Origin: Siphonodentalium dalli | Lineage: Eukaryota > Mollusca > Scaphopoda > Gadilida > Siphonodentaliidae | DNA: 64,000 bases | Direction of reading: 5' to 3' | Assembly: GCA_032622095.1 (NCBI GenBank) | Contig: CP136065.1 | Coordinates: forward strand, 96,853,343-96,917,342 | Part shown: in pieces, positions 31,554 to 64,000 of the stretch | Numbering within the stretch: the stretch's first letter is position 1 | Layout: each line of letters starts with the position of its first letter | Program-made: the position numbers and the translations under genes | The notes under the pieces: model-generated | Database searches by the model: none | What the model saw: only the letters and a program-made list of their open reading frames with translations | What the model was told of the DNA's origin: nothing

Positions 31554-31632
31554 ATGGACAATTTATTGTACACGGTGATTACAATCTTCGTTCTGCGAGT
31601 AACTGTATCTTTGTCGCAGCCTGTTAATACAC
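31554..31632 (+). CDS. Gene B exon 1: start codon and signal peptide
   Basis: The ATG in a good context (TCAAGATGG) opens 26 codons: MDNLLYTV, the hydrophobic [12 protein letters not shown], then SQPVNT. The exon ends at C/GTAAGT in phase 1, and the next exon starts by completing a His codon followed by NVARHK, the usual start of an FTP domain. Signal cleavage after the hydrophobic core near LSQ is likely. A TTTTATAAT stretch at about 31520 is too close to the ATG to be called a promoter with confidence. Confidence 0.75.
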
Positions 31633-34600: not shown

Positions 34601-35226
34601 TGATTTGATTGGGTTATGCGATACTTTGGAAGTTAAAAATCGAAATCTTGTCAATACAACATTTTAGTTTTGACAATTCCCGCGGCTTCGTTAGTCTCTG
34701 TCATTCAGGATATGGAGGATACGCCCTCCGCCCATTCTTCAAAAACAATCCTATCAGAATGATAGACATTTTAGAATTTTTTTTTTGACCTTTTAGATGC
34801 CCCCCCCCCCCCCCACCAATGGTATGTTCGTTTCTCGAGAAAAGACTTCTCCAAGTCACACAATTCAGGGGGAAATGGTCCTTTTAGCAAGCATGAACCA
34901 ACATGGATCGTTCATTCTTATTGCATTTCTCACTGGTGTGGAATACAAGGAGCGTTGTCTCACTTATTTGCGGAACAATTGAATAACAATTGAGTAAATC
35001 AACGCATGTTTTCTGTTGGGGTTCTTCAGTAATAAATATTAGAATTAATAGTCAAATGGGTGTGGAACCATGGATGTAACTCGCCTTCTCTAATATAAGG
35101 CAGTGAATCGCAACGTGCCATTCCGATCGATACATGGCCATTTCTATAAGAACTGAGAATTTGATCACGCTCACATTGAAGCATTGAACACTCATACTGA
35201 GTCCTTGCATCCATAACTCTGATATT

Positions 35227-35278
<52 letters not shown>

Positions 35279-38200: not shown

Positions 38201-41200
38201 AGTTTTGCGTAAATCCATTTGCACCCCCCCCCCCCCATTGCACCTCAATACTCAGGCCTAGTAGCCTATATATTCATAAACCGTGGTTCTATATACCCAG
38301 TATCAGAACATTCAGATATTTGAACCTGAAAATTGCATCAATCCTAACATCTAGTGGTCCAACTCCAGACAAATGCACACAGCTACGGACAAGAGACCAG
38401 GACACACCGCGCCGACCATGGTTGTTCGGCCGGATGTGAGAAAAGTTTGAAAACTAAACAAGAAAATTGCAAAATCCTAGCATCTAGACTGGCCTCAAGC
38501 TTTCCAATAGTATTGGAAATTTCAAACCTCACACCCATAGGTGGGAAAAAATCTCCAACTGATGACCATTTCAGTCCACAATTTTGACCAAATGTAGTAA
38601 AATATTGCTTTCTTAAACTAACTAGCAGTTTTTAATGGCCAGGGGAGGGACCATGACCATGGTTCGGTCCGGTGTGCGAACAATTTTAATATCTGAACAA
38701 GAAAATCGCAAAATACTAGCATCTAGACTAGCCTGAAGCCTTCCTCGAGTTGGAAATTTTCCAACTGATGACAATTCCAATGACCATGTTGACCAAATGT
38801 AGGACAATATTGTTTTCTTATATTAACTAGCAGTTTTTGACTGGCCACGGGGGAGGGACCAGGACACAAGGTTTCCAAGTGTTGGAATTTCCAACCTGAC
38901 ACCCCCCACTGAGGTTGGAAATTTTCCAACTGATGACAATTCCAATGACCATGTTGACCAAAGTGACAATATTGTTTTCTTATATTAACTAGCAGTTTTT
39001 GACTGGCCGCGGGGAGGGACCAGGACACAAGGTTTCCAAGTGTTGGAATTTCCAACCTGACACCCCCATAAGGTTGGAAAATTTCCAACTGATGGCAATT
39101 TCAGTCCAAAATATTGACAAAAAGTAGGAAAATATGCAAATATTGATCCAAATACAATAAATTCCCCCCATAAATTGTTTGAAAATCAAACTACAAGAGC
39201 ATTTTCAACTTATTGTTGGTGTGAAATTTCCAACTGATGTTGTGGTAGGGATGAAATTTCTAACTGTTGAACATTTTTACCAAAGTTGGGGGGGGGGTAA
39301 GACACGTCTCTGCTCAGCCACATATGATGTGTAGTCGTGGGCATTTCCCCCTTTTATATACAAGTTCCGATGCTCGTTTTCCGATGTCACTGTCAGTGGA
39401 ACGCGGTGGTTAGATTGGACAACGAAGATACGCTAATACTAAACCAACTGTGGCTGGATTTGGCGAAAACGAAGATGACGAATCCGTCAATTAGACCTGT
39501 GATATATCGAGTTTAAACTTTGACTATAGGTGACACTCCACAGTTTCAACAGGAATGGACCCAAAAATAGGGGGCCCATGGATTCATTGAAATTTATCTG
39601 GATTATGATCCCAAACCATATAGACAATATATATATGCCTGAAATTAGTACAGAATAGGCATTCAGAATTTGATACATAATTTCCATAATATATAGGCTA
39701 TCAAGAGTTATGGCCCTTGATCTTTTGATTGAAAATGTGATTTGTATTCAAAAAATGACCAAAATATTGCATTTTCATACCCAAGGGGCACGAATACCAG
39801 ATTTTTTCAAGCATGGTCACCTATGTTGGTTTAAAGGCCTCTGGCTTCCAACATCAATGTGAATACAATTCCAACTTTCGCCGTTAAAAATACCAGAAAA
39901 TCAATTTTTAATGCAGATGACAAATTTTGGGTGCTAAAAAATGGATCCAGTATCTAGAGCCACTGTTTCGCAGAAAACGCTACTGCTGTCTATGGGTGGG
40001 GTCAAGGTCACTTGCACTTATTTTTGTCATCAGTCTAGAACACCTTCTAAAATTACACAAATTCATATCCCACCTTGTCTTAATATACATACCACATTAA
40101 TGGTGCCAGAAACCACTAGCACTTTATATCTATAAAATCACCCCTACTGATCATTCGAACATGTGGAGTGTCACCTTAAGGGGAATGCAATTTCAATAAT
40201 CTTTAATAGCGACCACACCTCCTTATTCTCTGCATTATACCGCTTAAAATGATATATTACACCCCATGCGTTATTGCAATCACAAGCAGCAAGATTGGGT
40301 GGGGATTTACATGCACCCCAATAATTTCACCCCATTTGGGTCTTTCAGAACCCAATGACGTTATGCTTGACGTAGTGACAAAATGTATATATTCAACCAT
40401 CATCTATAGCTTGAAAAAGGTCTGAAATGCTAAAATCTTGTATAAAATATATTATGAGATGCATATTTTCCTCAGATATAAAAATAAAACATAATATTTC
40501 ATGCAACTACTATCTTTAGTACTCTCCCAAAACCATGGGTTAAAAAATTCCAAGTCTTATTTAGCATTAAGGGAAAGCTATACAAGGTTATGACATCACA
40601 TGAACAATATGTTGTCAAGTGAAATATGACCAAGGAAACCTGAATCATTATATTTCACACTTGTGAATAAGAAAGACTGAATATCTAATCTTGTAGTATA
40701 CTGTGTAATGTCAGTCTTTTCAGCTAAGATTCAAGGAGCATGTCATGAAGAAGTACCCATCATCTGAAAAATCATCAATAACAACACACATGAACCACCA
40801 TCACCACCCCCACCGCTCCAAGACTCCATATCCCCACCAATTCATATGACTAAAGGCCACCTGTATTGGAATATCCATAGATGAATGGTGTATTTAGCAT
40901 AAAATGTTCCTTCTAACTGAGCAGATTTGCTAAAAAATGATTTTCAGTGTAAATATTTGTCTATTTGCTGGTTTTTAAGGTGACATTCCACAGTTTCAAC
41001 AGGAATGGACCCAAAAATAGGGGGCCCATGGATTCATTGAAATTTATCTGGATTATGATCCCAAACCATATAGACAATATATATATGCCTGAAATTAGTA
41101 CAGAATAGACATTCAGAATTTGATACATAATTTCCATAATATATGGGCTATCAAGAGTTATGGCCCTTGATATATTGATTGAAAATGTGATTTTTATTCA

Positions 41201-44200
41201 AAAAATGACCAAAATATTGCATTTTCATACCCAAGGGGCACGAATACCAGATTTTTTCAAGCATGGTCACCTATATTGGTTTAAAGGCCTCTGGCTTCCA
41301 ACATCAATGTGAAAAAAATTCCAACTTTCGCCGTAAAAAATACCAGAAAATCAATATTTAATGCAGATGACAAATTTTGGGTGCTAAAATATGGACCCAG
41401 TATCTAGAGCCACTGTTTCGCAGAAAACGCTACTGCTGTCTATGGGTGGGGTCAAGGTCACTTGCACTTATTTTTGTCATCAGTCTAGAACACCTTCTAA
41501 AATTACACAAATTCATATCCCACCTTGTCTTAAATACATACCACATTAATGGTGCCAGAAACCACTAGCACTTTATATCTATAAAATCACTCCTACTGAT
41601 CATTCGAAACTGTGGAGTGTCACCATAGCTGGTAAACGGCGGTTGAAACCAACGGATTTACTGATTACTGAATTGGGTTTACTCTGGAGATTACGAATCT
41701 TACCTTAGTATTTTTGACAATATTGTTTTCTTATATTAACTATCAGTTTTTGACTGGCCACGGGGGAGGGACCAGGACACAAGGTTTCCAAGTGTTGGAA
41801 TTTCCAACCTGACACCCCCATAAGGTTGGAAAATTTCCAACTGATGGCAATTTCAGTCCAAAATTTTGACAAAAAGTAGGAAAATATGCAAATATTGATC
41901 CAAATACAATAAATTCCCCCAATAAATTGTTTAAAAATCAAACTACAAGAACATTTTCAACTTATTGTTGGTGTGAAATTTCCAACTGATGTTGTGGTAG
42001 GGATGAAATTTCTAACTGTTGAACATTTTAACCAAAGTTGGGGGGGGGGGCGGTAAGACACGTCTCTGCTCAGCCACATATGATGTGCAGTCGTGGGCAT
42101 TTCCCCTTTTATATACAAGTTCCGATGCTTGTGTTCCGATGTCACTGTCAGTGGAACGCGGTGGTTAGATTGGACAACGAAGATACGCTAATACTAAACC
42201 AGCTGTGGCTGGATTTGGCGAAAACGAAGATGACGAATCCGTCAATTAGACCTGTGATATATCGAGTTTAAACTTTGACTATAGCTGGTAAACGGCGGTT
42301 GAAACCAACGGGTTTACTGATTACTGAATCGGGTTTACGCTGGAGATTACGAATCTTACCTTAGTGTTTGTTACACTTTTCTTCGTAGACAACGTAGCGC
42401 GACACAAGGCGGATACAGGCATTTCCCAGCCATTTGGAAACGGAATATTTACCAAGGAAGGGGGCGTTGACGGGGACAAAGAGTGGAGCGACACGTCTGG
42501 TGTTCATTCGAAAGGTACCAATCGGCCCTGGTGGTATGTTAATCTCGAAGCGGATTACGGAATTCGCCAGATAGGTGTCTATAACCGAGGATGTGAGTAT
42601 GTTATGGATAAGTACTGTCGATATAATGTATATATATAGGCGAACAACATATAACAAACAAGGCTGTATAAAGGGAGTTTAACGCACATTCCATAGAGAT
42701 GGAAAATGTTATCTTCGGTTTAAAGATTGTCTATCTCTTTGTAAGCATGCGTTATATAGGAATTCTGGACGTTTCCGCACCTGGACGTTTCGGTATCCGG
42801 TTTTATAGTTCGGCACCAGGACGTTTCGGCACACGATTTTTCGGCGCTTCAGACGTTTCGGCACCTGATAATTTTCGGACCAAAGAAAATACCTGGGATG
42901 AATATAAATGCATTCTTGATTTCAATAAATGTAAAAATGGAACACATGATAACGATGTTGGTGAACATAACTATCACTAATCATGTACATTATGATACGA
43001 TCAGCTGCGGCCCCGAAGAGCTCACTAAGCGATATAGAATTGTAAATCTCAGCATTCACTTTGCGCATGAACAATAAAGAGCGTTCCTTGATCAGTCAAA
43101 AATTCATAATAATTGAGACCATAAAGAGCGTTTTTCTTACTTCTGTTCGAACTGTTCAAATTACTGATAACATATTACTTATCTAAGCTTCCCCGTTGTA
43201 TAAACGGTCCGCGTATTTGTATAGCAAGCAGTTATTTAGTATTATATGAATGTATATTTCTATGTTTTTTTCTACCAATTTTAATAAAACACAGAGACGG
43301 GGCTTAATTCCAGGGATGTTTTCATCATTATATTATTAGTGAAGATAAGACTACCTGATTACAAAAAGTGATTCGGGTAATTTGTGCCGAAACGTCTTCG
43401 ATGAAGTGCTGAAACGTCCAACTGCTTGGGCCGTAAACCCAGGTGCCGAAACGTCCCGAAAACCAGGTGCCGAAAGGTCCAGGCGCCGAAAGGTCCTGCA
43501 CCCGTTATATAGTTACCGGGGTATAATATGAATCGAAGGGCCCTGTCTGGAAATGCTTCTATCGATTAATATTGATTATATTTCGAAAATTTTCCGTTCT
43601 AAAACATGTGGTTGTTTAGCTAACAATCAATAGCGGTTACTTTTAACAGTGTCCAGAAATTTATTGTGTCACAGATAAACTTTAATTAGACTCATTATAC
43701 ATTATCGCTTATAGATATGTATTAAAACAATTAATCTGGGACAATTGACGTTCGGGTATAACTATGGGAACATGTTCTAAAAATAGAACAATACAGTATC
43801 CCATTTAATCATCTCATTTTATAATAAGATTTTAGAAATAAAATCAATATTAATTGATAGAAGCGTTTCCAGACATGGGTCTTCAATTGATATTCATTAT
43901 TTTATAACCACGAAACTATATTTAAAAATTGTTATATGAAGAGATAATCCATCTTTAATAATTTCTCACGAGGTTGAGCTTATATGATCATCTTTGTCGT
44001 GATGGAATCACCTCAAAATGACTTGTATTGTAATACCTTTTTACAACATACAACGTGGATGGTTCATTGTCAATGCAAAGGTCGATCAGGACAGAAAGGC
44101 TATAACTAGCTTCATCTTCCAAGCTTCGATTGGTTGTGTTTTGTCATATGCACGTACTGTACGTGAATCAAGTCGGAATATACATGCCGTGTACCTGATG

Positions 44201-47200
44201 TGATAATTGGTTTAAACGGGTATAATAATATAGCTCGTTTGAACGTCCACATTTGGCAGGATAAATATCAACATATACATATGCACACGATTGTTCATCC
44301 ATATTCACTCGCATGTGGATCCACATATGAACATCAAACACCATTTAACGTTTGTTGACGCTATACTACAATCACCGTTATACCAATGTATTGAACTGTT
44401 ATAGATTTAGCTAAAATATGCGAGTAATGAGTGCAAATCGCCGGCATTAGTCTTTTATGGATCCGTCCCGTCTATTTTTAGCAGTTATGGAATAGGAATT
44501 TTAGTTTCTTAGTTTCCATTTATATTAATGGTCATAACATAATTGTAGTCGCTTGAGTTCGATAGCAAATAGTTTAGGAAATAAACGTCAGTATGATGAT
44601 TATAAAACATTAGATTTTGTGTTTTGAAAAGGAACTATTTCGCGCGTCGGGCTACGTTACTCGACGAGCGATACAGGTGTATGGATACAGCCTCTTTTCT
44701 GCGAATATCAGCCTGGTATAATTCCACCAAAACATCTTTCAGCAGCAGAAAAGAGCCCATTATTCTCATTACCCATCCCCCATCCAACCTCCAATATTGA
44801 CTTTCCCCTCATCCGTTGATTCAGGGACTTATCAGGGGGTTGGTGACGCACTTGTGTCGCTCACTATATACACCCTGCACCTCACCATCATATATCATAT
44901 TTTCTTAATGTCAACTTTTCCTTTTTAGGGCAATTGTTGTTCATTACATTCTGTGATATGAGTTGGTGTCGCGCTTGTATCACACACTATCTCATTTTCG
45001 GTTTTGTCGTCCAACTTTATGTAGTTCAACTTCTGTATTACTATAAAGTTACATTTTTTGACTCTGTTTGTGTTGGGGGGAAAAATCATGTTAAATTTTT
45101 AAAATCATATAAATTAAAACAAAGTCCATCCGAAAACCATCGTTTCTAAATTCACCTTATTATCCGATGGGCCGTGTTCATAAAATATTATCCCAATATT
45201 CGTGACTGTCGGTTCGAATTATCGCCATAGGGACAACACCTACCTTAACCATTATCGTTTCTATTTGAAATTCTCACGTTTGTCTTAATATGATAAGCGT
45301 TGATGTGGTGAGATTGTCTAGAAATTAGTTTTTCATGCATGACAACAAAATTCTTTCTGAGAGGAAAACTCGGACAATGTTTTACAACAGCATCAAACTC
45401 GTTGAAGTTTGTTCATGCAATTGCACACTGCTGTCAACGCCTCACCACATATCTACATGCACATGCAGATCACAGGTAAGAGTGCTCGTTGTGTGTGCAT
45501 TTATATCATAATATATGCATGCCTGTGTCATCCATATCCAATTACATGTGCACTAACATATAATCACACATCCTCCACATTCAGGCAATTGGCGCCCGTA
45601 ATATCAGTAAAAGTCGCCATACCGTTTACACGAACGTGCCCGATGTTCATCAACCAACAGCTGCGGCCTTCTCTTCATACAAAGCGATGAACCACTAAAC
45701 GCCATCTGACATGCAACATTTCACTAATACATTTTAATTTTACAGTTTACGACCGAATACGTGGTTTCCAAATATTCGTGGCGGACAGTTCGTATTATGG
45801 GAACTGGGACACAAACAATCTATGTCACACTGATACGGATATCATCAAGGATGTTTATACATTCGCCTGTGATAGCATCAGGACTGGCAGATATGTGGCA
45901 TTGAGGTTACAGAGCAACGGGCTTGATTCATATCTGAACTTCAACGAACTCGAAGCCTATGGTTAGTGCACATTATTAGTGCGAACATCTGAGATATTCT
46001 TGACTATATTGTTTTCATAGCGGTACATAATGTACCAATAGAAGATACAACTCTACAGCTCATGTACATTTATAGTCATACCAATAATACAACAAAATAT
46101 GAAGCAAAATTACAAGGTAATTCATGCATGTTTTCTCGGGACAACACGGTCATATACTGAACATACAGTAATCAATCCGTTTATTTTTCATAAACACATA
46201 CGGTACATACCACATGTATGAATATATATAGTACTAGCAGGGTTACCCGGTGTTTCCCAGGTTAAAGTGATGTGAAACCCTCTGTGGATATTTGGTGGGA
46301 ATAGAGAATGCTCTTGCTCTCAAAGTGTTACACGTATTCTCATAAATTGTATATCCAAATGGCTTCACAAAACATGATTCTTACACATGGAATATAAGTA
46401 GTGGCTCACCTTGTCAGGTTGGAGCGATTATCATTTTGTTGATCGCGTTTAATCCGTCTCACCAATAAAGAAGTATTCATTTATTTACAACTGTGTATAC
46501 GTTATAGCATGACGTTATATCATGAAACGTGAACATCATAAACACATTATTTCGAAAAACATATAAGACGACAATTGTGTTTTACATAGAGATATACCAA
46601 TCAATCAATCAATCAATCAATCTAGTTTATCATATCTTCATGAAGATACAGATGTTTTAAGGATATGTCCAGGTGCTCCTCTGTTCTTGTGCTATGTACT
46701 GGCTAATCATTTTCAGTTTAAAAGAAATGATGTTGTGCACGTATAGCAGCTACATATGCCCGACACAGCGAGATTTTGAGTTGTTTATGTTAGGTGATGA
46801 GTCCACTATTGGAGGATCCTGAAAAGTCATGTGTTACTGACTGCGTTTTCCTTTATCTCAGAAGTAACAATATTTGACTGCACACTGTGACCACTATTTT
46901 TGAACAGGCCTGCTCTACATTTCCATATCTCTTGGCAATTGTAAGTTTTTTGTGGAAACTATACTGAATGGGACAGACTCAATCGCGTTATAATATATAC
47001 ATGAGCCATTCTAATATGCAATCCTCTGACGTTTCAAGGTCCCTCAGTTTGAATGAATATATGTATCTCTTAAATAGATTGATATAAATATACTTTTCAT
47101 GCTTTCTTCTATGTATCTGTTTTGATAGATCATTATAGAATTGCCCTGATTTGCATCCCCATATAGAAAAATATATAATTCGCCGATATCCAACAAACTT

Positions 47201-53200: not shown

Positions 53201-56200
53201 TATGTGGAACCTTACCATGGTAAATGTCTATTTACCGTGGTATTATGATCGTTTAACATGGTATGTAATAGTTATATAAGTTGAAAGCACAGCAAAGTAG
53301 CTTGACTTACATAGTAATATATAACTTATATAACTTACTGTGGTAACCACCATTTTACCATGGTCTTATCATTGTAAACGATGATTTACCGTGGAAAAAT
53401 GGTGGTACATTTTTTACAATGGTAAATGTCTATATACATTGCCATTATGATAGATTACCATGGTATATAATAATGCGAGTATAGTAAAGTACCTTGGTTT
53501 ACGTATTAATATATAATTTATTGTGATAACAATATTGTGCTATGCACTTACCATGGTAATTGATAGTTTACCATGGTAAGAGCGTAGTAAAATGTAGTTT
53601 ACCATGGTAAAACCGTGGTACTTTGTATATGGGTATATGTCGTTGTTATTACTTGTTCCTTAGTAATCTACTTCACATTAGGGGGTGGTCACAGCTCGAG
53701 ATTGAATGTATCTTTGTGACTTTTGTGAGCCGATATCGCAATAAACATTGAATTAATTCCACGGGAGAAACTCCATAATTGTAAGCGCATCAAAGAAAAA
53801 TTGCTCTTAAAGTCACTTAAATCGTGCAATTTTGAATTGGGATCTTCACCTTCAGCGTGTTACATTATTAATGGACGGGTAATAACTAAGACATATGTAC
53901 TTAGCTGCACTGTTTTTCCCCTTAAATTTAATACATTTCCCTGTCACAACATCAAAAAGTTCTCAGGTTTTATTCTGGTCTATTATGATATCTACGGCGT
54001 TAGCCAAAGTAGAGACTCACGACATGATCTAAAAGTCACTATGACGGGGCTTATGTGCCATACAGACTATCCAACTTGGGGTGCACGTACACACCGGTCT
54101 GTGACACCATAGCATAATCGAAGTCCGTGATACAGGCTGTAGTAGAATACAGCGTAGTATATCCACACATGCATGCATATACGACCACATAATATATTCA
54201 AGATTCGATAATGCATGCCAGGTCCATATACTATATGTGGTAAATCGTGGTGGCGGCACTATAAGCAGATAGGCTTGCAACTGAATCATATACCTTGTTA
54301 TATATAATGAACACAATAATATCCACCTTTATCTATATTTGTTTAATTGGAACAACATAATTATTATACCACCAGCATGGTACAGGTTCAGTTGGTATGC
54401 ATGTTGGTGTATCTGATCACATCTGAATAAGGGCAGAAAGTGTTTTGGAAATTAATTTTTCGCTGTATGGAGTAACGGGCGGTGATTAAACTTTAAACGC
54501 AAAAGCAGCGTATATAGGCGTTTGCATCAATTCTACATACGTTTTGTATCGCGGTGCCCTTTCAAAAACCAACCCGATGTCACAACCCATTGCCACGTGT
54601 CATCTCTCGTGAATATTATAGAGAAGTTCGACAATGGTGCCATCAGACTAACGACTTTGTCACTGACATTTATTTATTCTTGTAGTTTGCACAGAGGGGT
54701 GGTACGGAAATTTCTCCAGCGGATGTGTTAATAGATGCGACGAGCGTAATTGTGCATCCGGGAGTAGTTGCCCTACCTGGGACGGATTATGCACAATTGG
54801 TTGCTCGCCTGGTTGGCATGGGGCATATTGTAAACAACGATGCCCTTTGAACTGCGCAGCATGTGACCAAGTTAGTGCAGCGTGTCGAAGCTGCAGTGCT
54901 GGATTCTACAACCTGACCTCGAATTGCCACGACGTATGCGCACTTCGTAACTGCGCCGTTGGAAGTAGCTGTCCTACATCCGGGGAATGTGTCACTGGCT
55001 GTCAATCTGAGTGGTACGGATCACAGTGCCTCACGCGCTGTAGCGGGAATTGTAACATATGTGAGCAGAACACTGGAATATGCTCCTCCTGCAAACAAGG
55101 GACATATGATTTGGGATTGAATTGTACGATGTCGTGCGACGAACGAAATTGTGCGGGGGACAACACGTGCGACGACACCGGCGAGTGTTTTGGAAGTTGC
55201 CAGGATGGTTGGTTCGGATCAGATTGCCGCGAACCTTGTCATATGGGCTGCTTAACCTGCGTAAAGACCAATGGGGCATGCTTGCAATGCAAGAGTGGGT
55301 TCTTTCTTGATGTGACAAGCTGTTCACAGTGCCGTGGTGGTTGCTCTATATGCAAGTCATATGACACATGTTTTAGTTGTGTCCCCGGACGCCACGGAAC
55401 ACTATGTGATAAATTGTGTAACCAAACTTGTGGAGGCAGCGACCCAATGGATAACGCCTGTTATCAAGACAACGGCACGTGTGTTGTTGGGTGTGACGAC
55501 GGTTACCACGGTGACACATGTGGCGGCGTTTGCAGCGCTAACTGCGTTCTCGGAGCATGTGACAGAGAATCATCAGCATGCATAAGGGGGTGTCAAAGTG
55601 GATGGGAGGGCGAGACATGCGCCCAACGTATTCGTAAGTAAAAGACTAGTGTTACTTTTCGGCCGGTCTGTTGGACCAAGGGAATTATATTATGGTTTAG
55701 AATCCACGGACATGCGCGTTTATATTCGCGGCATGAAACAACAGAACAGTTGGCATGCACCGAAGTGACAACCAGCGTGGGTACCACTTTAGCTAGGCAT
55801 TTAATCAGTTGGACAATATTTGCCTAAGGCTTCATCCGTTGGAAATGTCAAACCTATAATATGTCAAGGTCGTTCTGATATAAACATATCACAACAGTCC
55901 TCTTTTGATCAATTGATTTATATTTTATTTGTACAATAACCAAAAATAAAATTGAACAATGAATTATGCATGAGCACCATGACCACTTTAGATCAAGTGT
56001 CTAATAAATTCAAACACGCACTTTTAAGTCAAAATGTACAATGGAACGTGTGTACAATTAGCTGTGTTAGGTTGGAAGTTTTCCGCAGTTTAAAACTGTG
56101 AAGAGGTATCGGCAAATTCAATCCATGGAGATGCAAACAATATTTCAATGTTTATAAAAGTTGTCTCCTGATTGCTGTAAATTTAAAGGTTCAAAACCAT

Positions 56201-59200
56201 TAAGTCCAAGGGTGCTGGTCACATCCCTGTTGATATGGCTGAAAACTCCATTATTAAAATACGAAATGTTTCCGAATTGGCCAGGGACTGGCAATATAGT
56301 CTCATAAATCTTTCATCTGAGCTACAGTATGCTAGTCACTGGTCCCACTGCGGGTTTTTAACATATACATGCACAAAGGCATGAATTACTTTGACTTTCC
56401 AACTCGTTGCCATGCATGGTGTACCAGTAAATGTACGCAATGTAGCAAATCCACACCATCATTATATTGATGTTGTTAAGGTTATAACACAATACATATG
56501 CAACGCATACATTATTTGCATATATGCGTACATCGAGTCCATACCCTGAACGGTTTGATTTCCAAAGCCCATACCCTTGTGCTTTAATTCTTGATTTAGT
56601 ATAACCTGTTTTTCAATATTGTCCACACAAATCATTTTCCTTCGAACGCATAACTTGATCTGCATCATATTTCATATTTTGCAGCAGAGGACGGCGGATT
56701 TCCTGTTGCGGCGGTTGTCGTTCCTGTTATCCTGATTATTATTGTCATACTCCTCGTCGTGGGGTTTCTCGTTATCCGTCGTCGAAGGTCAGTGATTGGT
56801 CTAATCACATCGCTCAGTATCATGTCTCTGAATCGGAAATCTGAATTCTCAACCGGGTCTGTCACCTTTGTGTAATTTGTATGGCTGAATTGGTTGTTTG
56901 GGAGGAACGGGGGTCCTTTTCCCCGGATATTCGGAAGGACTCAGTGGTCAGGGTCAGGGTCGATTCATATATCTCACTCATAGTGGATGAAATTTCTTTC
57001 ACATGGGTACATATTCGGGACTACCACGAAACCGCATTCATCTTCAGGGTGAAGCAAGACTTTCAAGTGTCAGCCAGCCATAAATTCCACGCAACTCTAT
57101 TTTGATTGGATGTCATCATACTGGCGCAATTTGTAGCTGGCTGACATAGACGCAACATGATTTGTGGTTCAAGACTACATAGCTTTTCCTCTACTTCACG
57201 TATTCACGCAAGCAACCATACATGTACAAACAAGTTACTTCACACATCAACGCCCTCGGATTTTATCGGTATGAACAATAGTAAAAGTGCTTATCAATTA
57301 TATAGTTGGCCTGGTCATAAGAGTTAACATATAACATCGTCATGGTAAGACTAAATACCCCCGATATATGCGAGTTAGCCGCACTGTCGCAGTCTCTATT
57401 TTTTCTAACATTGATATCCAGCTCATAATAAGATGTCGACTTCTCTATAATTGTATACATGTCATGATAAACGGCTGTGGTGATTTTTTCAAATCTCTTA
57501 TTCACAGACAACCGAAACACAGGGACGGATTGAACTTGGCATACAGTGGACCTTATGCTGATGGTAAGATTGTAATTCGATGGATATTTCTGATACGGTG
57601 GTAGTTTCAGTTTTGCTGTGGACAGGTTTTCAAAAACTAAGCTGTTATCGTCAGCGGGAAAGTGACTAAATTGTCAAAACTCAATGCGTTTTGAATAAAA
57701 CTGCCTATAATTACAACAGCGAAGAACCACCACGTACACACACATAACTTTAATAACGAACTTATCGACTTTATTAATTAACATAGTTATTTTTACTAAT
57801 CAAATAACTATATTCAGATGTTTTGTTAGTCACCGTATTGGCTTGTTTAGCCATAATACTCAAGTTGATCAATCGAAATAATAAGATAAACTAAACAAGC
57901 AATTTACTCATCGAACTAAGCAACGGAACAGTCTAATTTTTTGCAAAAATTGACAATGTGTTAGATTGATAATATGCACCTCTGCATGACTAACGCAATA
58001 TCGTTGAAATAGATGTATGCCAATATATACATGTATGACAAACTATTCACATGGATACAACCAGACAGTATGAAGGAATCTAAGAGAAACCAAGAACACA
58101 AACCCACAGATATCGGGACCACAAGGACAGTGGATGAGAGTTCCCTTTGTCAAAACGACAATGACGGAAACACGGTGTATGAAGACATGGCATCTGATTT
58201 AATACCTATTGGTGTTCTATGGGAACAGATCAAAGAGAAGGAGTGTACCGGATCACTAGCTGAAGAATTCAAGGTCAGTCTTTGTATTACGGAAAATTGT
58301 GAGCTTGGTGTGGTTAAAGGAAAGGAAAGGGGTGCAGTTGGAAATTCCAAGGTGGACACCCCCACAACAGAGATTATCCACGTCCCTGCTTACACGATTC
58401 GAACATGGCCACTTTGGTTCCTTAAAACGTAAACACTCTTAAGGATGTGTGTATATGGTCTGGTTAAAATGTTTTATGGTACTTTTATTCGGAATTCCGC
58501 CTTAGATACACCCATGCACGTCACTGCAACAAAAACGTCCGATGGTACCTAATAAGTGTAAATACTAGCTAATTCCCCAAAACGATTCATTTATTCATCA
58601 CCAAATCATCCCTACCAAACTCGTATAGTTGACAACCAATGGTATGATGGTATGCTAGGATGCGTCCACCCCCATGATTAACTGCACTGCCACTCCGTTC
58701 AACCAATCCCATTTTCAACTCTGATATAGATTCAATTTACCCCAGGCTATTGGACAATTTCAGCGAACTGTCATCAGTGCTGTCGTCTGACGTTTTCGAA
58801 CGGAATGTGAATTTGCTAATTGTATATATTGCAGTCTCTGGTAACAGATTTAGCATACCCAGCGACTGTTGCCACGAGCAAGGACAACATGCGTCGAAAC
58901 AGATACAAGGGCATATATGCATGTAAGTGTACATATGTTTAGTCGTAATCTGTGTGGAATAATTATGTAGTACAAACTCGCCCAATTTATATATATACTA
59001 ATGTAGGCCGTGGGGAGTAATTACAGTAATGCTCTAAGTAATCGACTCCTTAACCACAGCATAATTATGGGTAATTTTTCAGGATTTAGTCGGAAATATG
59101 GCTTGTTGCCATTCATCGGAAAGAGCTTTCCGATTAATGGCATTGCTGTATATGCGATGATCAATGCAGTTTCCGTCACACAGAACTGATGTTTGTATCC

Positions 59201-62200
59201 GGACAACAAATTGATTATCAAGTCACAATGATCAGACCAAATTTCGCATTTGAACTAAATTATCTTGTATTTTTCTACCTGGAACGTTTGAAAGATAACC
59301 TTCTTCTTCTGATGGATGTCGAACATTCACTGACCATTATTAGCGGTTGTGTGGATTTTCTGTGTGTGTTTATACTAGCACTAAAGGAGTAGTTTCTCGT
59401 TAAATATTTAAATCTGTGTTCAATCTGAGCTGTTTATTGTATCAGAAGAAACTGTCATCTTGGTGCTTCCGAGTCTACATCATGAGAAGATACAGACAGG
59501 AGATGTATTGTATCGTGCGGATTAGAATTGTTTTATGAGTACACCGTTTGGGATCAGAATTGACGAGTTCGTTATTAATTGTGTACATCATAGTGAGTCT
59601 GAATTTAAGACGTCTATTTTATAGGCTAAGTTGGTGTATGTTGTCAATCAAGTCGGCAACTGAGCGAATATTATGGAATCTGTTTCGTACATACTTGTAT
59701 CTGGCTGGCTGAGTGAGTGACGTTTTACACATACACTGCCATGTCCTGTGTTTGTTTAATTGCCCTGTCTTGTGTGGGTCCCATTATTGGCGAGCAATAT
59801 TCGAGTTTAGGCCTGCGAGATTGTTATTACCAAATTACCAAATTAGTTAGTCAAGAAGCGTAATTGTGACAAAATTCGTTAAAGACACGGTTGGCCTTGG
59901 CGGTGGGTATCCTGTGAAAATATCTCCACCCGTCAAAAACCGCCACAAACAGAAAGAACATCAAAATGTAGATTGACTTTGTCCGTATACAAATAAGACA
60001 AATCGCGTAAACAGTATGTTATGGTCATATGTTTGACCATTGTTATGTAAACAAAAGCATAAAAAGTTACTTTTCTGGTGTTTGTTTATATTATGATGGT
60101 AAAAATAAAGAGCGTTCTTTGTTGGTGAATACCTGATATGGAACTAATAAAGAGCGTTTATGCCATTTGTGTGTGATTAGCCAGTAGCATTGTGCTGTCT
60201 TCTGTAACCCAATCAGGCTCTTGCTTAGGTAAAATATAGTAGGTCTTTATGATATCATGCTGTTTACGCGATGATCATGGTATATATGAACGGAACTGTG
60301 TGCGTTTTAATGTTTTTCTGTTTACGGTGTTTGGAACAAATATGAATATTTTCGACAATTAAGGCCGCACGTGCCTTTAAACATATCCGAAATAATCCCC
60401 TGTATGTTTATGGTCTATGTTTCAGACGATCACTCCAGAGTGGTGCTCAAAGTTGACGACAAAAGCGAGAATCAAACAGATTACATCAATGCTAACTATA
60501 TCGACGTGAGTTATAATAAATACGGAATATTTCCTTCACATTTTCAAACAGTGCAGTTCATGCAGTGACACAGATTTGACACCACCTGATGAAGCTCCAG
60601 TATGGTAACACTGAAAGCTAATCATATATACACATTTAGGAACTAACGAAATTATCAACTTTACCACGACCTATACTGATTTTGCCAAAAGCTGAGGCTA
60701 CATAAAGAATCGCTAAATAGTAAACTTAAATAGGCACTCGCAGTGGATAAATGTGCAAACAGTATAACAATATATAAAACATCTCCACTAGGAAGAACAT
60801 GGTGAGATAGATACACGTCGTGCTTCTATCCATTATTGATAGTTCTTCAGTATATACGCTTTGCATTTAAAGGTACCCAATCCGAATTAACGCTCCTAAA
60901 TTACTATTTCTTTGGCTTCGGTGGTCAACAATGTTTGATTCGAGTCGAGTAACCCACCTATTGACGCTCAGATTGATCATATATCGATTTCTTGAAGTTT
61001 GTCAATTTTCGAATTTGCAATTAAAAGTGGCACAGAAACACGTGACTAAACAGATGGTCTCGGACAAAATTGCGGATGAAGATAGATAACTCTAAAATCA
61101 AGTGGTAATACGGCCATATTTTGTTGAACACAATTTTGACAAATAAAAAGTTTTGGGAAATTTTATGCCATAGTTGACAGAGGTGTTAGCATTATTTTGT
61201 TGCGATAAATCGATTCTGATAACTAAAGCGTATTTTAAACAAATATTAGTGTTGTATATTGATGATATGGGGACCGCCTGGTCGGATTGAGTACATTTAA
61301 CCATTGTTACTGATTCTAAAAACAATTGTTACATTGATTTATCAACAAACGTCGCTATCGTTCAATATTAATGGAGACAGTACGGCAATCATGGTTGTAT
61401 CTGAATTATACTAACACCCTGATAAAACTGCCTCCTTTAAAAGTAGATGACTTACATTCAAGACGTCATACGAGATGGTAAAATTTACCCCGTTGACATA
61501 AACAGAAATGCATTGTGTCAACGAGACATAGTACATCCTCAAAAGTACAGTACAATAAAGACGAAACAACCACATTTCGCTCAATGTGGCGGTCGGAATC
61601 CACTCAAAATCTTCGACATCGGATATACTGATATGTGGCGACGTCGCCGTGATTTTGTGTGGATAATTAATACTAAACACACATATCTATTGTTCGTCGC
61701 GACAAATCGCAGATAGTCGCCGCGAAAATCGCTGCAGAAAAAAGTTATGTTGGATATTCCCCGAGACGTTTCGCTCAAAAATAGGCCCGCCGCGTAGAGC
61801 GAAACGGTTGTTTCGTCTTTGATATATTGTAGGTAAAGTCCGCCTGTACGCAATTCATCTACTCATCGATATGCATGTACCATTGTGCTTATAAGCTACA
61901 CAGTGAGCAGAGACTATATGATTGATTCGAAGCATGCAAATTGTGACCAACGTTTTGTGTTTTGTGTTTTGTGCGCATGTATATCCAAACATCGCTTTTT
62001 CAGGGATACGATAAGACTAAAGAATACATTGCTTCACAAGGTAAGGGAATGTACTTAGTGGAAAACATCCACGCTGAATTACAGCGTAGAGTTATATCCC
62101 AGCTAACGTGACAAAGCTCACTCAGTATTGGTTCATAACTTGCAACCATTATACAATTGCCCATTCTTTCGTCTAAAAACAGTAGAGGATACAGAGCATT

Positions 62201-62545
62201 CTCAATTGGTATATGGTGTATATACTGTTTATAACTGATGGATGTTTTTTTTTATTTTCGCGATGCCTGTGTCATGCAGATATTGATACTTGGAAGTTCT
62301 TCTTTTGTGTTGTCCGGTGAACTCATAATTGGTTTCGGATATTTTGACTAATTTAATGTAGAGTCGGACGGGGGATTTTTTTCTAAACAAAGTGTGGTAA
62401 TTATTCTGGTGGCAAAATATAATTGTATGAAGTTTTCGATTTCACAGGAGCAACGAATGTTAATATTAAAGAGCTCTGGAGGATGTTATGGCAAGTGAAT
62501 CCACGAGCAATAGTCATGCTTACGAGACTGGAAGAAGCTGGCGTG
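31554..62545 (+). CDS. Gene B: FTP-lectin / EGF-repeat receptor-type tyrosine phosphatase, 5' part (10 exons seen, continues beyond the right edge)
   Basis: Exons: 31554-31632, 42389-42592, 45746-45961, 54686-55633, 56685-56787, 57508-57563, 58065-58273, 60426-60505, 62004-62040 and 62448-62545. They encode signal peptide, FTP (fucolectin/tachylectin-4/pentraxin-1-like) domain, EGF-like repeats, one transmembrane helix, juxtamembrane region and the N-terminal third of a PTP domain. Boundary phases agree at every junction except 58273 to 60426, where an exon is missing. The catalytic HCxxGxxR loop lies outside the window. By family it would be a single-pass receptor with an extracellular carbohydrate-binding-like head and a cytoplasmic phosphatase. 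Such architectures are seen in predicted bivalve proteins, but I know of no functional study. Whether this copy is intact cannot be decided here. Confidence 0.85.
31633..31955. other. Start of gene B intron 1, nothing recognised
   Basis: Short AT-rich stretch between the leader exon and the inverted-repeat element at 31956; no feature seen. Confidence 0.4.
31956..32790. mobile_element. 835-bp near-palindromic element
   Basis: CGATTATCACTGTGTAC at 31956 pairs with GTACACAGTGATTATATCG at 32772-32790. GGAAAAGTGGAATATACG, CAATCAACACCG and CATGGACATGTTATGTA have complements in 32640-32760, and the pairing continues to a hairpin centre (GTGTACGACAGTATG at 32311 with its complement at 32350). A 43-bp piece with TGTATAATGCTATTTTCC is tandemly duplicated in the left arm only (32055-32140). 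The arms differ in length by about 70 bp. It lies in gene B intron 1. Confidence 0.7.
33407..34173 (-). pseudogene. Retrotransposon gag relic (two frames, truncated)
   Basis: The frame from 34173 begins [13 protein letters not shown], with [20 protein letters not shown] and [20 protein letters not shown] second frame to 33407 continues with [40 protein letters not shown] and [12 protein letters not shown]. This is the order seen in gag-like proteins of LTR retrotransposons from molluscs and cnidarians. A frame change near 33784 separates the halves, and homology stops after KPE at about 33520. No protease, reverse transcriptase or integrase follows, so it is a dead fragment. It lies antisense in gene B intron 1. 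Confidence 0.7.
33457..34404. repeat. Short direct repeats bracketing the gag relic
   Basis: CGCCAATATGGTAGTACATA at about 33460 recurs as CGCCAATATGGTAGCACATA at 34379, both followed by CAACGAT. The two copies enclose the gag fragment and may be pieces of a terminal or template-switch sequence. CGGTATTTACGGTAACTGTA near 34256 also repeats TTTACGGTAATGG at 34194. Confidence 0.5.
34410..36370. other. Gene B intron 1, no gene seen
   Basis: It contains a poly-C run at 34800-34814 and the microsatellites at 35230-35344, otherwise no recognisable feature. The open frame at 35052-35387 is produced by the simple repeats. Confidence 0.45.
35230..35344. repeat. Compound microsatellite (TA)n then (CTGT)n
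   Basis: About 25 TA units (one interruption) at 35230-35280, followed by CTGT/CTGTCTCTGT repeats from 35294 to 35344. Confidence 0.9.
36376..36440 (+). repeat. Isolated left end of the CAGGGACGTG family
   Basis: CAGGGACGTTGTTAGAGGGT and then CTCCATTGTGAGGCACC match the first 40 bases of the element at 37041 (CAGGGACGTGGCTAGAGGGT). The match then fades. Confidence 0.55.
37041..38108 (+). mobile_element. CAGGGACGTG-family element, copy 2
   Basis: Starts CAGGGACGTGGCTAGAGGGT with a long G-tract and GTGTCCACCTTGTG, and ends CACGTCTCTG. Its core has several repeats of an internal unit built on ACTAGCAGTTTTGACTGGCC, GGGAGGGACC, GACCATGGTTCGGCC and GGAAATTTCCAACCTGACAC. It has no coding capacity. 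It abuts copy 3 with one base between. Confidence 0.75.
38110..39312 (+). mobile_element. CAGGGACGTG-family element, copy 3
   Basis: Same end sequences and core as copy 2, arranged head to tail with it. The ACTAGCAGTTTTTGACTGGCC unit appears at about 38620, 38825 and 38988, so the core has expanded by tandem duplication of a unit of about 160-200 bp. It ends GACACGTCTCTG at 39312. Confidence 0.75.
39529..41624. mobile_element. 2.1-kb composite element: two 647-bp direct repeats with TIRs, ATA target duplication
   Basis: The element begins GGTGACACTCCACAGTTTC (39529) and ends with its complement (41624). It consists of copy 1 (39529-40175), a unique middle (40176-40978) and copy 2 (40979-41624). 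The two copies are in the same direction and nearly identical, each with the same inverted ends. ATA flanks the whole (39526-39528 and 41625-41627). The unoccupied site GACTATAGCTGG is preserved in the right copy of the tandem duplication (about 42272-42283). No transposase or retroelement proteins are visible in the middle part. The class is uncertain: a nested pair of MITEs or an LTR-like non-autonomous element. Confidence 0.8.
41714..42068 (+). repeat. CAGGGACGTG-family fragment, copy 4 (right part only)
   Basis: Carried along in the tandem duplication. It matches 38964-39312, including TTTGACTGGCCACGGGGGAG, GTTGGAAAATTTCCAACTG and the terminal CACGTCTCTG. Confidence 0.75.
42389..42592 (+). 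CDS. Gene B exon 2: first half of the FTP (fucolectin-type) domain
   Basis: Acceptor TTCGTAG, phase 1; donor GTGAGT, phase 1 (204 nt). It encodes [27 protein letters not shown] and [20 protein letters not shown]. These match the opening strands of FTP / F5-8C-type galactose-binding-like domains (NVA..K.A.QSS...A.DG...........WW.VDL...Y.I..V.IYNR). In classical fucolectins a His and an R-x-D-R group bind fucose. A His is present (GVHSKG), but the spacing to the following Arg is not the standard one, so sugar binding is uncertain. Confidence 0.88.
42760..43503. mobile_element. 744-bp foldback element with ACGTTTCGGCACC multimer ends and 9-bp target duplication
   Basis: The left end (42760-42865) has about five units of GGACGTTTCGGCACCTG or variants. 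The right end (43385-43500) has about five units in the opposite orientation (CAGGTGCCGAAACGTCC). GTTATATAG lies immediately outside on both sides (42751-42759 and 43504-43512), a perfect 9-bp direct repeat. A 9-bp duplication is typical of Mutator-like elements. No transposase is inside. It sits in gene B intron 2, and the left-end units create the spurious open frame at 42699-42980. Confidence 0.75.
43066..43160 (+). repeat. Paired AAAGAGCG repeat, copy 1
   Basis: AATAAAGAGCGTTCCTTGAT is followed 48 bp later by CATAAAGAGCGTTTTTCTTA and TTCTGT. The same pair occurs at 60100-60165 and 63058-63145. This copy lies within the foldback element. Confidence 0.6.
43515..45740. other. Gene B intron 2, no gene seen
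   Basis: AT-rich intron sequence without recognisable coding or repeat structure. The short frames here have no domain features. Confidence 0.45.
45746..45961 (+). CDS. Gene B exon 3: second half of the FTP domain
   Basis: Acceptor TTTTACAG, phase 1; donor GGTTAGT, phase 1 (216 nt). It encodes [15 protein letters not shown], a Cys pair (NNLCHTD and YTFACDS), [12 protein letters not shown] and [10 protein letters not shown]. The ending matches FTP domains (G-R-Y-V-x-I/L ... L-x-L-x-E-x-x-V/A-Y/F-G). Together with exon 2 it makes a complete domain of about 140 residues. Confidence 0.9.
46598..46622. repeat. (CAAT)n microsatellite
   Basis: Six CAAT units in a row. Confidence 0.9.
47177..47227. 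repeat. Perfect 51-bp palindrome
   Basis: Two 25-base arms around a single G. The left arm starts AATTCGCCGATATCC and ends CAAACTTT; the right arm is its exact complement. No mismatch was found. It lies just before the 150-bp tandem array. Confidence 0.9.
49017..49178. mobile_element. 162-bp hairpin element
   Basis: ATAAGGATTAACTGTCATGT pairs with ACAGTTAACCCTTAT at the right end. The arms (about 75 bases each) pair through ACTGTTTTTATGG, TGTAACCGCG and CATAACTTGT, with a loop near 49092-49099. It is a typical small palindromic MITE, next to the end of the 150-bp array. Confidence 0.75.
49180..49735. other. 3' flank of gene C, no further gene
   Basis: It contains TTTATT (AATAAA on the minus strand) at 49526-49531, which could serve as a polyadenylation signal for gene C. 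No coding signal was seen. Confidence 0.35.
49738..50351 (-). CDS. Gene C exon 2
   Basis: 614 nt with stop, open throughout. Acceptor CTATTTGCAG, phase 1. It encodes about 204 residues. The first 110 are the helical recombinase N-terminal-like region, and the rest is a low-complexity tail rich in Asn, Thr, Gln and His. An unspliced frame from the ATG at 50370 is also open but would lose the conserved NT..W part. Confidence 0.65.
51185..51479 (-). pseudogene. Gene C exon 1 with in-frame TAG
   Basis: 37 codons from the ATG at 51479, then TAG at 51368-51366, then 61 further codons in the same frame to the donor at 51184. Upstream of the ATG the frame remains open for a further acidic run ([15 protein letters not shown]), which could belong to the protein if there is an earlier exon; CACAG at about 51527 could be an acceptor. 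Both parts look coding, so the stop is the odd point. Confidence 0.5.
51530..52386. other. Gene B intron 3, no gene seen
   Basis: AT-rich intron sequence. No coding pattern was recognised. Confidence 0.4.
52387..54060. mobile_element. Element with inverted ends of about 110 bp and a CCATGG-rich core
   Basis: The complement of 52387-52520 (CCCTGTCA, ACATTAAAAAGTTACCAGG, TATGATCTCTACGG, CAGAGTAGAGATTCATGGCA) aligns with 53930-54050 (CCCTGTCA, ACATCAAAAAGTTCTCAGG, TATGATATCTACGG, CAAAGTAGAGACTCACGACA). Between them, 52950-53640 is rich in ACCATGGTA palindromes and contains the 35-bp motif at 53086-53120, as in the element at 10424-11235. The borders are approximate. Confidence 0.6.
53086..53120 (-). 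repeat. Dispersed 35-bp motif, copy 3 (inverted)
   Basis: GTAGACCAAATCTACTTGG and TCCACGACAGCTTGGG are the complement of the motif at 1977-2012, again beside a CCATGG array. Confidence 0.6.
54061..54685. other. End of gene B intron 3, nothing recognised
   Basis: No repeat or coding signal until the TTATTCTTGTAG acceptor of the EGF exon. Confidence 0.4.
54686..55633 (+). CDS. Gene B exon 4: EGF-like (MEGF/SREC-type) repeats
   Basis: One 948-nt exon, phase 1 in (CTTGTAG) and phase 1 out (GTAAGT), encoding about 316 residues with a Cys every 5-8 residues. Units read [87 protein letters not shown] and [15 protein letters not shown]. These are laminin-type/MEGF EGF-like repeats of the C-x-x-G-x-x-G-x-x-C class, plus shorter furin-like CXXC units ([28 protein letters not shown]). 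The region forms the rod between lectin head and membrane. Several repeats in one uninterrupted exon is unusual and suggests growth by internal duplication or an intron-less ancestor. Confidence 0.9.
55634..56684. other. Gene B intron 4, no gene seen
   Basis: At 55800-56300 there are weak TTGGAAATGTC / GGAAGTTTTCC remnants like the CAGGGACGTG family. Nothing else was recognised. Confidence 0.35.
56685..56787 (+). CDS. Gene B exon 5: transmembrane helix
   Basis: 103 nt, phase 1 in and phase 2 out (GTCAGT). It encodes EDGGFP, about 25 hydrophobic residues ([23 protein letters not shown]) and then RRR, a stop-transfer signal, so the N terminus is outside. The acceptor is GCAGCAG, a NAGNAG tandem site; using the second AG would drop one codon. 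Confidence 0.88.
56788..57507. other. Gene B intron 5, no feature
   Basis: Nothing recognised. Short open frames here are read-through of the flanking exons or chance. Confidence 0.4.
57508..57563 (+). CDS. Gene B exon 6: juxtamembrane
   Basis: 56 nt, phase 2 in (TATTCACAG) and phase 1 out (GTAAGA), encoding [19 protein letters not shown]. It is a basic start right after the membrane, then two Tyr. The size and phases fit between the transmembrane exon and exon 7. It has little sequence signature of its own. Confidence 0.7.
58065..58273 (+). CDS. Gene B exon 7: juxtamembrane with YEDM and start of the PTP lead-in
   Basis: 209 nt, phase 1 in (ACAACCAG) and phase 0 out (GTCAGT). It encodes a polar [15 protein letters not shown] stretch, [20 protein letters not shown] and [15 protein letters not shown]. 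The ending corresponds to the helix before receptor PTP domains (I-P-V-x-x-L-x-x-x-I ... F-x-x-E-F-x-x-L). YEDM is a Y-x-x-M motif, in other proteins a docking site for PI3-kinase SH2 domains when phosphorylated; this use is inference. Confidence 0.8.
58328..58393 (-). repeat. Isolated end of the CAGGGACGTG family
   Basis: On the minus strand it reads CAGGGACGTGGATAATCTCT, then GGGGGTGTCCACCTTGGAA, then TTTCCAACTGCACCCC, the same order as the left end of the element at 37041. It starts 55 bp after exon 7 and would be translated if intron 7 were retained. Confidence 0.7.
60100..60165 (+). repeat. Paired AAAGAGCG repeat, copy 2
   Basis: AAATAAAGAGCGTTCTTTGT and, 42 bp later, CTAATAAAGAGCGTTTATG, with TGATATGGAACT between them. 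Confidence 0.6.
60426..60505 (+). CDS. Gene B exon 9: PTP domain, DHSRVVL ... DYINANYID
   Basis: 80 nt, phase 1 in (ATGTTTCAG) and phase 0 out (GTGAGT), numbered 9 to leave room for the missing exon. It encodes [16 protein letters not shown] and [10 protein letters not shown], the conserved PTP motif 2 that forms the pTyr-loop side of the domain. The sequence is as conserved as in active enzymes. Confidence 0.92.
60506..62003. other. Gene B intron, no feature
   Basis: No coding pattern. The frames at 61411-61853 overlap one another on both strands and have no domain. Confidence 0.4.
62004..62040 (+). CDS. Gene B exon 10: PTP domain, [13 protein letters not shown]
   Basis: A 37-nt micro-exon, phase 0 in (TTTTTCAG) and phase 1 out (GTAAGG). 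[13 protein letters not shown] is the classic PTP YIAxQGP segment directly after NANYIDG. The small size and phases match PTP exon layouts. Confidence 0.92.
62448..62545 (+). CDS. Gene B exon 11: PTP domain, ELWRMLWQ ... [11 protein letters not shown]
   Basis: 98 nt, phase 1 in (GATTTCACAG) and phase 0 out (GTTAGT). It encodes [20 protein letters not shown] and [13 protein letters not shown], matching PTP T-x-x-D-F-W-R-M-x-W-E and I-V-M-L-T-x-L-x-E-x-G. Three usually invariant or near-invariant positions differ: G-P after YIASQ is G-A, D-F is E-L and the last E is Q. The exon expected next (K-C-x-x-Y-W-P) was not found before the window ends. Confidence 0.88.
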
Positions 62546-63674: not shown

Positions 63675-64000
63675 CGTATGTATTATGTCAGTGGACAAAC
63701 TGCAACATTTTGTTGCTGTAATTTATTTTAATTTGGTAAGTTAAATGTGTCGTCTATGGCCATTAATTTGTGTAACGTCACAGTGACGCGCCATGGGCGT
63801 TGAACGTCAAGGCATTGAGTCAATGGCTAATCGCCTGAAGTGGGACAACGTTTTGCGTTTGATAGTTAATGTTTGAGTCTATATAATTCCTCAAATATAT
63901 CGCATGCAGGTTTTGGTACATGGTACTATGTCTTTAAATTCACAGAAAATGATTTCCGACAGATATCACCTTTCTTGTCGCCAAAATACACAAAAAATAT

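Follow-up and report, generated by a model that had tools for sequence, protein, structure and literature searches.

Can an F-type lectin (FTP) domain, a rod of EGF-like repeats and a receptor tyrosine phosphatase belong to a single gene, and what would such a receptor do? The question is raised by a stretch of 64,000 nucleotides (C5:96853343-96917342, hereafter the window), for which a first-pass annotation had proposed exactly this combination at 31554-62545. We built a gene model from the plus-strand reading frames of the window together with 36 kb of DNA 3′ of it, setting exon borders by AG/GT and phase, and searched the 2.23-Gb genome (nine contigs) for relatives. The resulting gene has 21 exons on the plus strand at 31554-95056 in window numbering, the window itself ending at 64000, and encodes 1142 residues (Table 1). 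All 20 joins are in phase, every intron is GT...AG and none of the 1142 codons is a stop. The predicted protein consists of a signal peptide and an F-type lectin domain (exons 1-3), an EGF-like stalk (exon 4), one membrane helix (exon 5), a juxtamembrane stretch (exon 6), phosphatase domain D1 (exons 7-14) and a degenerate D2 (exons 15-21); every part that the annotation named is found in the sequence, in its order, in phase and on the plus strand. Its boundaries, the ATG at 31554 and the end of exon 10 at 62545, coincide exactly with exon borders, but the second half of the gene extends beyond them, with WPD, HCSAGIGRTG and D2 at 68976-95056.

Table 1. Exons of the modelled gene, in window numbering.
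Feature	Position	Strand	Remarks
Exon 1: start codon and signal peptide	31554..31632	+	donor GTAAGT, phase 1 out
Exon 2: FTP first half; variable loop 1, triad His and first Arg	42389..42592	+	
Exon 3: FTP second half; third basic residue, two cysteines	45746..45961	+	donor GTTAGT
Exon 4: nine and a half six-cysteine EGF-like modules	54686..55633	+	
Exon 5: membrane helix, phosphatase type	56685..56787	+	
Exon 6: juxtamembrane stretch with NTVYEDM	58069..58273	+	acceptor weak
Exon 7: D1, RRNRY stretch	58835..58922	+	
Exon 8: D1, DYINANYID	60426..60505	+	
Exon 9: D1	62004..62040	+	
Exon 10: D1, last exon within window	62448..62545	+	
Exons 11-14: D1, beyond window	68976-69101; 74359-74510 (WPD); 75662-75797 (HC-SAGIGRTG); 76268-76420	+	
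Exons 15-18: D2, beyond window	77502-77601; 78382-78452; 85645-85782; 88020-88148	+	
Exons 19-21: D2, beyond window	91592-91746; 93610-93745; 94982-95056 (stop)	+	

A domain search of the joined protein, one of the checks that the annotation had suggested, recovers both ends of this model from Pfam: Y_phosphatase (PF00102, E 7.2e-126, in two stretches) and F5_F8_type_C_2 (PF22633, E 4.4e-11). Whether the ends belong together can be judged from the wider family. Merging 79 matches of the joined protein by hand gave 32 EGF loci, and the lectin and phosphatase places at each were taken from genome searches that score the best candidates. A second lectin exon lies no more than 90 kb 5′ of the EGF exon at 27 of the 32 loci, on the same strand in all 27. 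A downstream end was assigned at 24 loci, always on the same strand: 15 are phosphatase ends (the window gene included) and nine are a different end, here called a tail, with eight loci left without an assigned end. The signal peptide in exon 1 was assigned by eye and by related exons elsewhere, of which the genome holds 22 (E 3e-4 to 0.17); such an exon lies within 70 kb 5′ at 14 of the 16 lectin first exons compared, a set without 82h-k and 44, and is on the same strand in each of the 14. The exon 5 helix is 76-94% identical at the three other phosphatase-type loci examined (80c, 80d and C2) and about 40% identical to the helix of tail-type loci. Because the order lectin, EGF, phosphatase recurs on one strand at 15 of 32 EGF-exon loci, the lectin, EGF and phosphatase exons most likely form one gene and not two, as the phases and the upstream signal exons also indicate.

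The competing gene structure would be a secreted single-domain lectin, made of the signal exon and the two FTP exons with a stop after exon 3, followed by a separate EGF-phosphatase receptor. Exon 3 read unspliced does run immediately into Gly-stop, the GTTAGT donor with its immediate stop is also present in C2, 80a, 82g and 92a-d, and FTP-type exons are frequent in the genome (142 matches). However, the donors in 80b-e, 82f, 82h-k, 44, 242, 438 and 450 are GTGAGT, GTGAGA, GTAGGT or GTATGC, with GTGAGT or GTGAGA throughout 80b-e, 82f and 82h-k, and in all of these the unspliced stop comes at least four codons on, at a place that varies, so the site is conserved as a splice donor and not as a stop. 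The EGF exon also opens in the phase in which exon 3 closes, and lectin and EGF exons never differ in strand at the loci that have both. Phases, donors and paralog order led us to set the two-gene structure aside as very improbable. As a separate observation, the GTTAGT donor (45962-45966 in the window, and its counterparts in C2, 80a, 82g and 92a-d) is in phase 1, and intron retention there could yield a secreted lectin.

We regard it as extremely improbable that the exon string is decayed or mis-joined, that is, a pseudogene or an assembly artefact. Such an origin would fit the very long introns, which hold repeats and a retroelement-like frame, and the near-identical copies in mirrored clusters at 80.3-81.0 and 82.4-83.4 Mb. 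Against it stand the absence of frameshifts as well as stops along the coding sequence, the presence of splice sites, the recurrence of the exon order on a second contig, C2, and the substitution rates: across six copies, dN/dS is 0.15 in D1 (three exons of six loci, with 82i and 82j left out) and 0.34 in the lectin. We hold the receptor architecture as modelled to be nearly certain. Several repeats were noted around these exons. Frames resembling LINE reverse transcriptase, read by eye, occupy about 82.2-85.1 kb (window numbering) of a D2 intron; three direct-repeat families with two copies each, 97-98% identical, lie within 39011-42287 and adjoin the first lectin exon on its 5′ side; and tandem units of 161 bases (38749-39100) and 295 bases (47986-48785) occur in the window.

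Signal peptide, single helix, intact D1 motifs and degenerate D2 identify the predicted product as a receptor-type tyrosine phosphatase. Among PDB sequences, D1 is closest to PTPRS/LAR (E 1.7e-100 for a two-domain chain and 9.5e-52 for the best single domain) and D2 is closest to PTPRE (E 2.4e-58). D1 keeps the NRY stretch (RRNRY, exon 7), WPD, the HCSAGxGRTG loop (HCX5R) and both Q-loop glutamines, and is very likely to be active as a phosphatase. D2 keeps the loop Cys and Arg (CMDGAER); its WPD has become WTD, the NRY tyrosine is lost and the first Q-loop glutamine is Met, losses that make it probably inactive. PTPRS/LAR and PTPRA/PTPRE share this plan of a single helix, a D1 with WPD, HCSAGxGRTG and Q loop, and a degenerate D2. 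At all eight loci examined, WPDKGVP and HC..AG[IV]GRTG are kept, which lends the proposed signalling by dephosphorylation support at the level of sequence. In contrast to mammalian receptor phosphatases, whose outer parts are described in excerpts of PMC10815196 as Ig, FN3, MAM, carbonic-anhydrase-like or disordered, the outer part here combines an F-type lectin with EGF-like modules. RPTP gamma and zeta offer a precedent for placing a folded head of another protein class, in their case carbonic-anhydrase-like, on a phosphatase receptor (PMC10815196, in the same excerpts), although their head is a different one and their spacer is FN3 plus disordered sequence where the window gene has EGF-like modules. 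Elsewhere in the genome, an intronless 767-codon frame at C9:171617200-171620400 contains a helix and two phosphatase domains and shares 33-34% identity with the window protein; it has HCGTGVSRTG as its D1 loop and resembles a retrocopy-type gene.

What the head might recognize depends on its putative binding site. The closest PDB sequence to the lectin is FBP32 (E 1.4e-15), with further matches to Sm-hPAF and to 1k12 (labelled 'LECTIN', E 9.7e-7), which we take to be eel agglutinin. Among 17 properly paired lectin domains, a count that excludes row 44, whose first exon (C5:44.641 Mb) and second exon (44.828 Mb) are parts of two different genes and which enters no tree or rate, the triad His and the third basic residue are present in every copy and the first Arg in 16. 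The complete His-Arg-Arg triad is thus found in 16 of 17 copies, the window gene included, the exception being 80d with Gly for the first Arg, and every copy has a His-to-Arg distance of 26. In eel agglutinin this triad holds fucose; the published motif adds an Asp, and the eel site a Cys-Cys contact (PMC5712786, in part). The window lectin (NRGFYDR) has no Asp two residues after the first Arg and no Cys-Cys, and it places four residues between the Arg residues where the canonical fucose motif has six. Because Asp, spacing and Cys-Cys all depart from the full motif, we class the predicted head as F-type-lectin-like and not as a canonical fucose lectin; its ligand may be a sugar other than fucose, or binding may have been lost. 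The earlier suggestion of glycan sensing accordingly keeps its triad but lacks the canonical Asp and Cys-Cys, and on this sequence evidence we consider a glycan the probable ligand.

The copies vary most in loop 1, where dN/dS is 0.79 among six copies and 0.83 among 13, against 0.29 in the remaining lectin, 0.32 in the EGF exon and the low D1 value given above. By alignment, not structure, loop 1 corresponds in position to the protruding CDR1 and lies beside the presumed binding site. Its ratio is high but below 1 and comes from 12 columns with dS of 0.86-1.04, near saturation, and it may therefore reflect relaxed constraint. Most variation in loop 1 is a trait shared with F-type lectins such as eel agglutinin, striped bass FBP32 and oyster bindin, as are the domain family, the His-Arg-Arg triad and a VDGD stretch resembling a cation motif; unlike them, the window lectin is joined to a phosphatase receptor and has an Arg-Arg loop without Asp and Cys-Cys. 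Two irregularities among the lectin exons were also seen: one gene has its second lectin exon twice, at C2:166.120 and 166.123 Mb, 2.2 kb apart and encoding identical peptides, and an additional partial second exon near 80d (80ddup) holds a stop.

The incomplete fucose site also bears on a different view of the receptor, in which the head serves structure or adhesion instead of sensing glycans, and the protein is an ordinary receptor phosphatase of development, like the ones that act in axon guidance. The kinship of D1 with PTPRS/LAR and of D2 with PTPRE would suit such a role. FTP domains can moreover lose triad residues and probably sugar binding with them, as in Drosophila CG9095 (PMC5712786, in the part available). 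Yet the triad is kept in nearly all copies here though loop 1 varies, and the family numbers about two dozen copies or more. Guidance phosphatases are not known to have expanded to two dozen copies. We consider the developmental reading unlikely and a sugar-reading head the better account of the sequence.

Between head and membrane, the stalk comprises nine six-cysteine modules and a half in a single exon. The first six modules alternate two spacings, and each module starts with C-x2-[GE], usually with an aromatic residue next. Ten such starts are present, a number that none of 5000 shuffles reached (maximum 4), for a pattern that was defined after the sequence was seen. Pfam yields no significant family for the stalk (the best, DSL, has E 0.49, and a curated EGF profile does not recognize it), NCBIfam yields no family and PDB sequences give a sole match at E 0.68; single-sequence structure prediction returns a mean pLDDT of 34. 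The designation EGF-like is taken from the cysteine spacing. Scavenger receptors of the MEGF/SREC type likewise place a long series of short, cysteine-rich EGF-like modules ahead of a single helix; unlike them, the window gene has a lectin head and a phosphatase, and its modules go without Pfam recognition.

The annotation's guess that the gene may belong to an expanded family is borne out within this one genome by the 32 EGF loci. By their sequences the family arose by duplication, mostly on contig C5 in several clusters with one cluster on C2, and the copies share ancestry and are not independent of one another. Two of the C5 clusters mirror each other, at 80.25-81.04 Mb on the plus strand and at 82.35-83.38 Mb on the minus strand; several of their rows are near-copies, and 80a and 82g do not differ in lectin domain or tail. 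The mirroring reflects either an extensive inverted duplication or the assembly itself.

Do all members end in a phosphatase? At nine EGF loci (803, 80a, 80b, 82g, 833 and 92a-d) no phosphatase exon was found among the best-scored candidates, and a candidate tail exon lies 3′ on the same strand. Lectin exons were found at seven of the nine, and at 803 and 833 there is no second lectin exon within 90 kb. Each of the four genes at 92.6-92.8 Mb carries lectin and EGF exons but no phosphatase exon by the same measure, and none lies in the 20 kb after 92a or in the 10 kb after 92b. A different membrane exon (GYPLAAVIVPSAILGAV...RR) lies 3′ of 92a and 92b and is also present in 80a, 80b and 803, hence in all five tail loci examined. 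The phosphatase-type juxtamembrane exon, conversely, was detected at 6 of 15 phosphatase loci but not at any of the nine tail loci; its YE(N/D) stretch resembles the YEN present in some tails. On C5 there are 11 tail exons, nine of them following an EGF exon on the same strand. All 11 open tails, which fall into three near-copy groups, have YST[IMV]N and a C-terminal tyrosine, and the candidate tails of 92a and 92b end in TYENPV. ITAM and ITIM labels were considered for the tail and dropped, as spacing and flanks do not strictly fit. Tail exons at C5:81035686 and 83041901 (81.036 and 83.042 Mb) have no EGF exon assigned.

How the tail would be joined to its helix requires one further element. 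A tail exon starting further upstream ('SSSIVHH...') was rejected because that stretch looks like an acceptor pyrimidine tract, and moving the start downstream left the helix exon out of phase with the tail exon. A search for a linking exon, within fixed bounds for length, donor and pyrimidines, gave a single candidate in each of 92a and 80b, of 16 residues (RCIHSTEERYTKSNIT and RCIHATKEHYSKSNIT, respectively), 12 of the 16 being identical. With it, the 92a chain reads through lectin, stalk, helix and tail in phase and without a stop. The introns flanking the linking exon are alike in the two genes as well, so the two occurrences do not count as separate evidence.

No constraint at the codon level is seen in the tail itself. 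Between 92a and 80a, the tail exon has dN 0.32 and dS 0.27 (dN/dS 1.2), with 12, 14 and 12 differences at the three codon positions; identity is 115/150 in the tail, 69/90 in the intron before it and 24/47 in the stretch after it. Given this evenness over codon positions and a tail no more conserved than an intron, the candidate tail is supported by its open frame, splice sites and kept tyrosines, and not by selection. The membrane exons, which are short, have dN/dS of 0.50-0.66.

If both ends are real, have heads and ends been inherited together? The lectin tree and the EGF tree each require three changes of end type. Placing the six phosphatase-type rows in one clade is rejected for the lectin (p-AU 4e-47) and for the EGF exon (p-AU 9e-9); with 82h counted as a phosphatase row, p is 0.00027. 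The lectin trees hold 15 of 18 rows (44, 82j and 82k left out) and the EGF trees 15 of 21 (82i, 82j, 82k, 833, 44 and 242 left out), and the p-AU tests additionally omit 82h and, for the lectin, 82i. The window gene itself is split: its lectin groups with the tail-type genes at 92 Mb (support 92/98), whereas its EGF exon is nearer the 80 Mb genes (support 92/95) and can be forced into the 92 group at the cost of weak rejection (p 0.041). Synonymous divergence also varies with the part compared: dS between 92a and 80a is 1.37 in EGF, 0.70 in lectin, 0.22 in helix and 0.27 in tail, and the means over 15 phosphatase-type pairs are 0.61 in lectin, 0.44 in EGF and 0.19 in D1. On these trees the outer parts do not sort by end type, and the simplest account would be exchange or homogenization between genes, the outer and inner halves differing in their histories.

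These results can be read as a system of paired receptors, in which one lectin-EGF outer part is fitted with either a phosphatase end or a short tyrosine end and the two oppose each other on the same ligand. The nine tail loci, the differing juxtamembrane and membrane exons, the read-through of 92a with a linker that is the sole candidate in 92a and in 80b, the tyrosines shared by all 11 tails and the rejection of one phosphatase clade for both outer parts all point in this direction. Against it, the tail lacks codon-level constraint and is matched by its intron in conservation, the linking exon sits in introns that are themselves alike, and the absence of phosphatase exons comes from searches scoring best candidates. 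We hold the paired-receptor reading tentatively, as the less probable side of the question. The wider claim, an invertebrate paired lectin-receptor system independent of that of vertebrates, with at least two dozen clustered genes, a fast-changing loop, heads swapped between two ends and an 'off' enzyme borne by the receptor itself, is somewhat more doubtful.

ITIMs recruit a phosphatase. KIR and Ly49 paired receptors likewise combine related outer parts with alternative signalling ends (PMC3533184, in excerpt), but there the inhibitory member bears ITIMs, whereas in the family described here the phosphatase would be within the receptor. The two-ended family is to us the most interesting part of the finding: if true, the paired-receptor principle would have been invented here independently, in a form whose phosphatase is integral to the receptor, and a threshold for self and non-self sugars in animals without antibodies would become a directly testable question.

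With or without a second end, we somewhat favour the explanation that the gene encodes a lectin-headed receptor phosphatase reading surface sugars. The head would bind glycans, each copy a somewhat different one, while the stalk would set the distance; glycan binding may then cluster, displace or exclude the receptor and so change the access of D1 to phosphotyrosine. D1 would dephosphorylate nearby signalling proteins, perhaps also the tyrosine tails carried by sister receptors whose heads are related, which would make tail-type sisters possible substrates or opponents of the phosphatase type. Surface sugars would thereby be read in a tunable, on/off manner, with defence or self/non-self recognition as the most likely setting. 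That the role is one of immunity or recognition is borrowed from other species, and we put it at even chances.

The context comes from molluscs. In the excerpted text of PMC13070813, receptor-type phosphatase transcripts of oysters differ between circulating and mucosal haemocytes, and three T-like ones are higher in mucosal agranulocytes than in granulocytes. In snails exposed to schistosomes, 45 receptor-type phosphatases fall into response categories (PMC8791074, in part). In a vent snail, the expanded families that are named include fucolectin and MEGF, and PTPRK appears in the same figure legend (PMC7895826, in part). As far as the excerpts of PMC8791074 and PMC13070813 extend, such immune transcriptomes list receptor-type phosphatases without a stated ligand; a lectin head offers these phosphatases a testable ligand class, surface sugars. 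The word phosphatase is absent from the main text of a 2017 review of F-type lectins, and phosphatase, EGF and lectin are all absent from the main text on snail resistance clusters (PMC7494358).

Receptor phosphatases are a known kind of protein, and the combination of lectin, EGF-like stalk and phosphatase is a new variation on it. Public databases contain molluscan entries, without names, that combine EGF repeats and phosphatase domains; the architecture may thus already be on record, though undescribed. The first-pass annotation had known of no functional description of this architecture, and there is none among the full-text literature matches listed, in a search that most subscription papers lie outside. 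One further feature of the genome concerns kinases: at C2:149.83-150.59 Mb, about 90 near-identical intronless protein-kinase frames, mostly of 281 codons, stand in tandem, and many of them have the same PF07714 score (145 best of 743 candidates scored).
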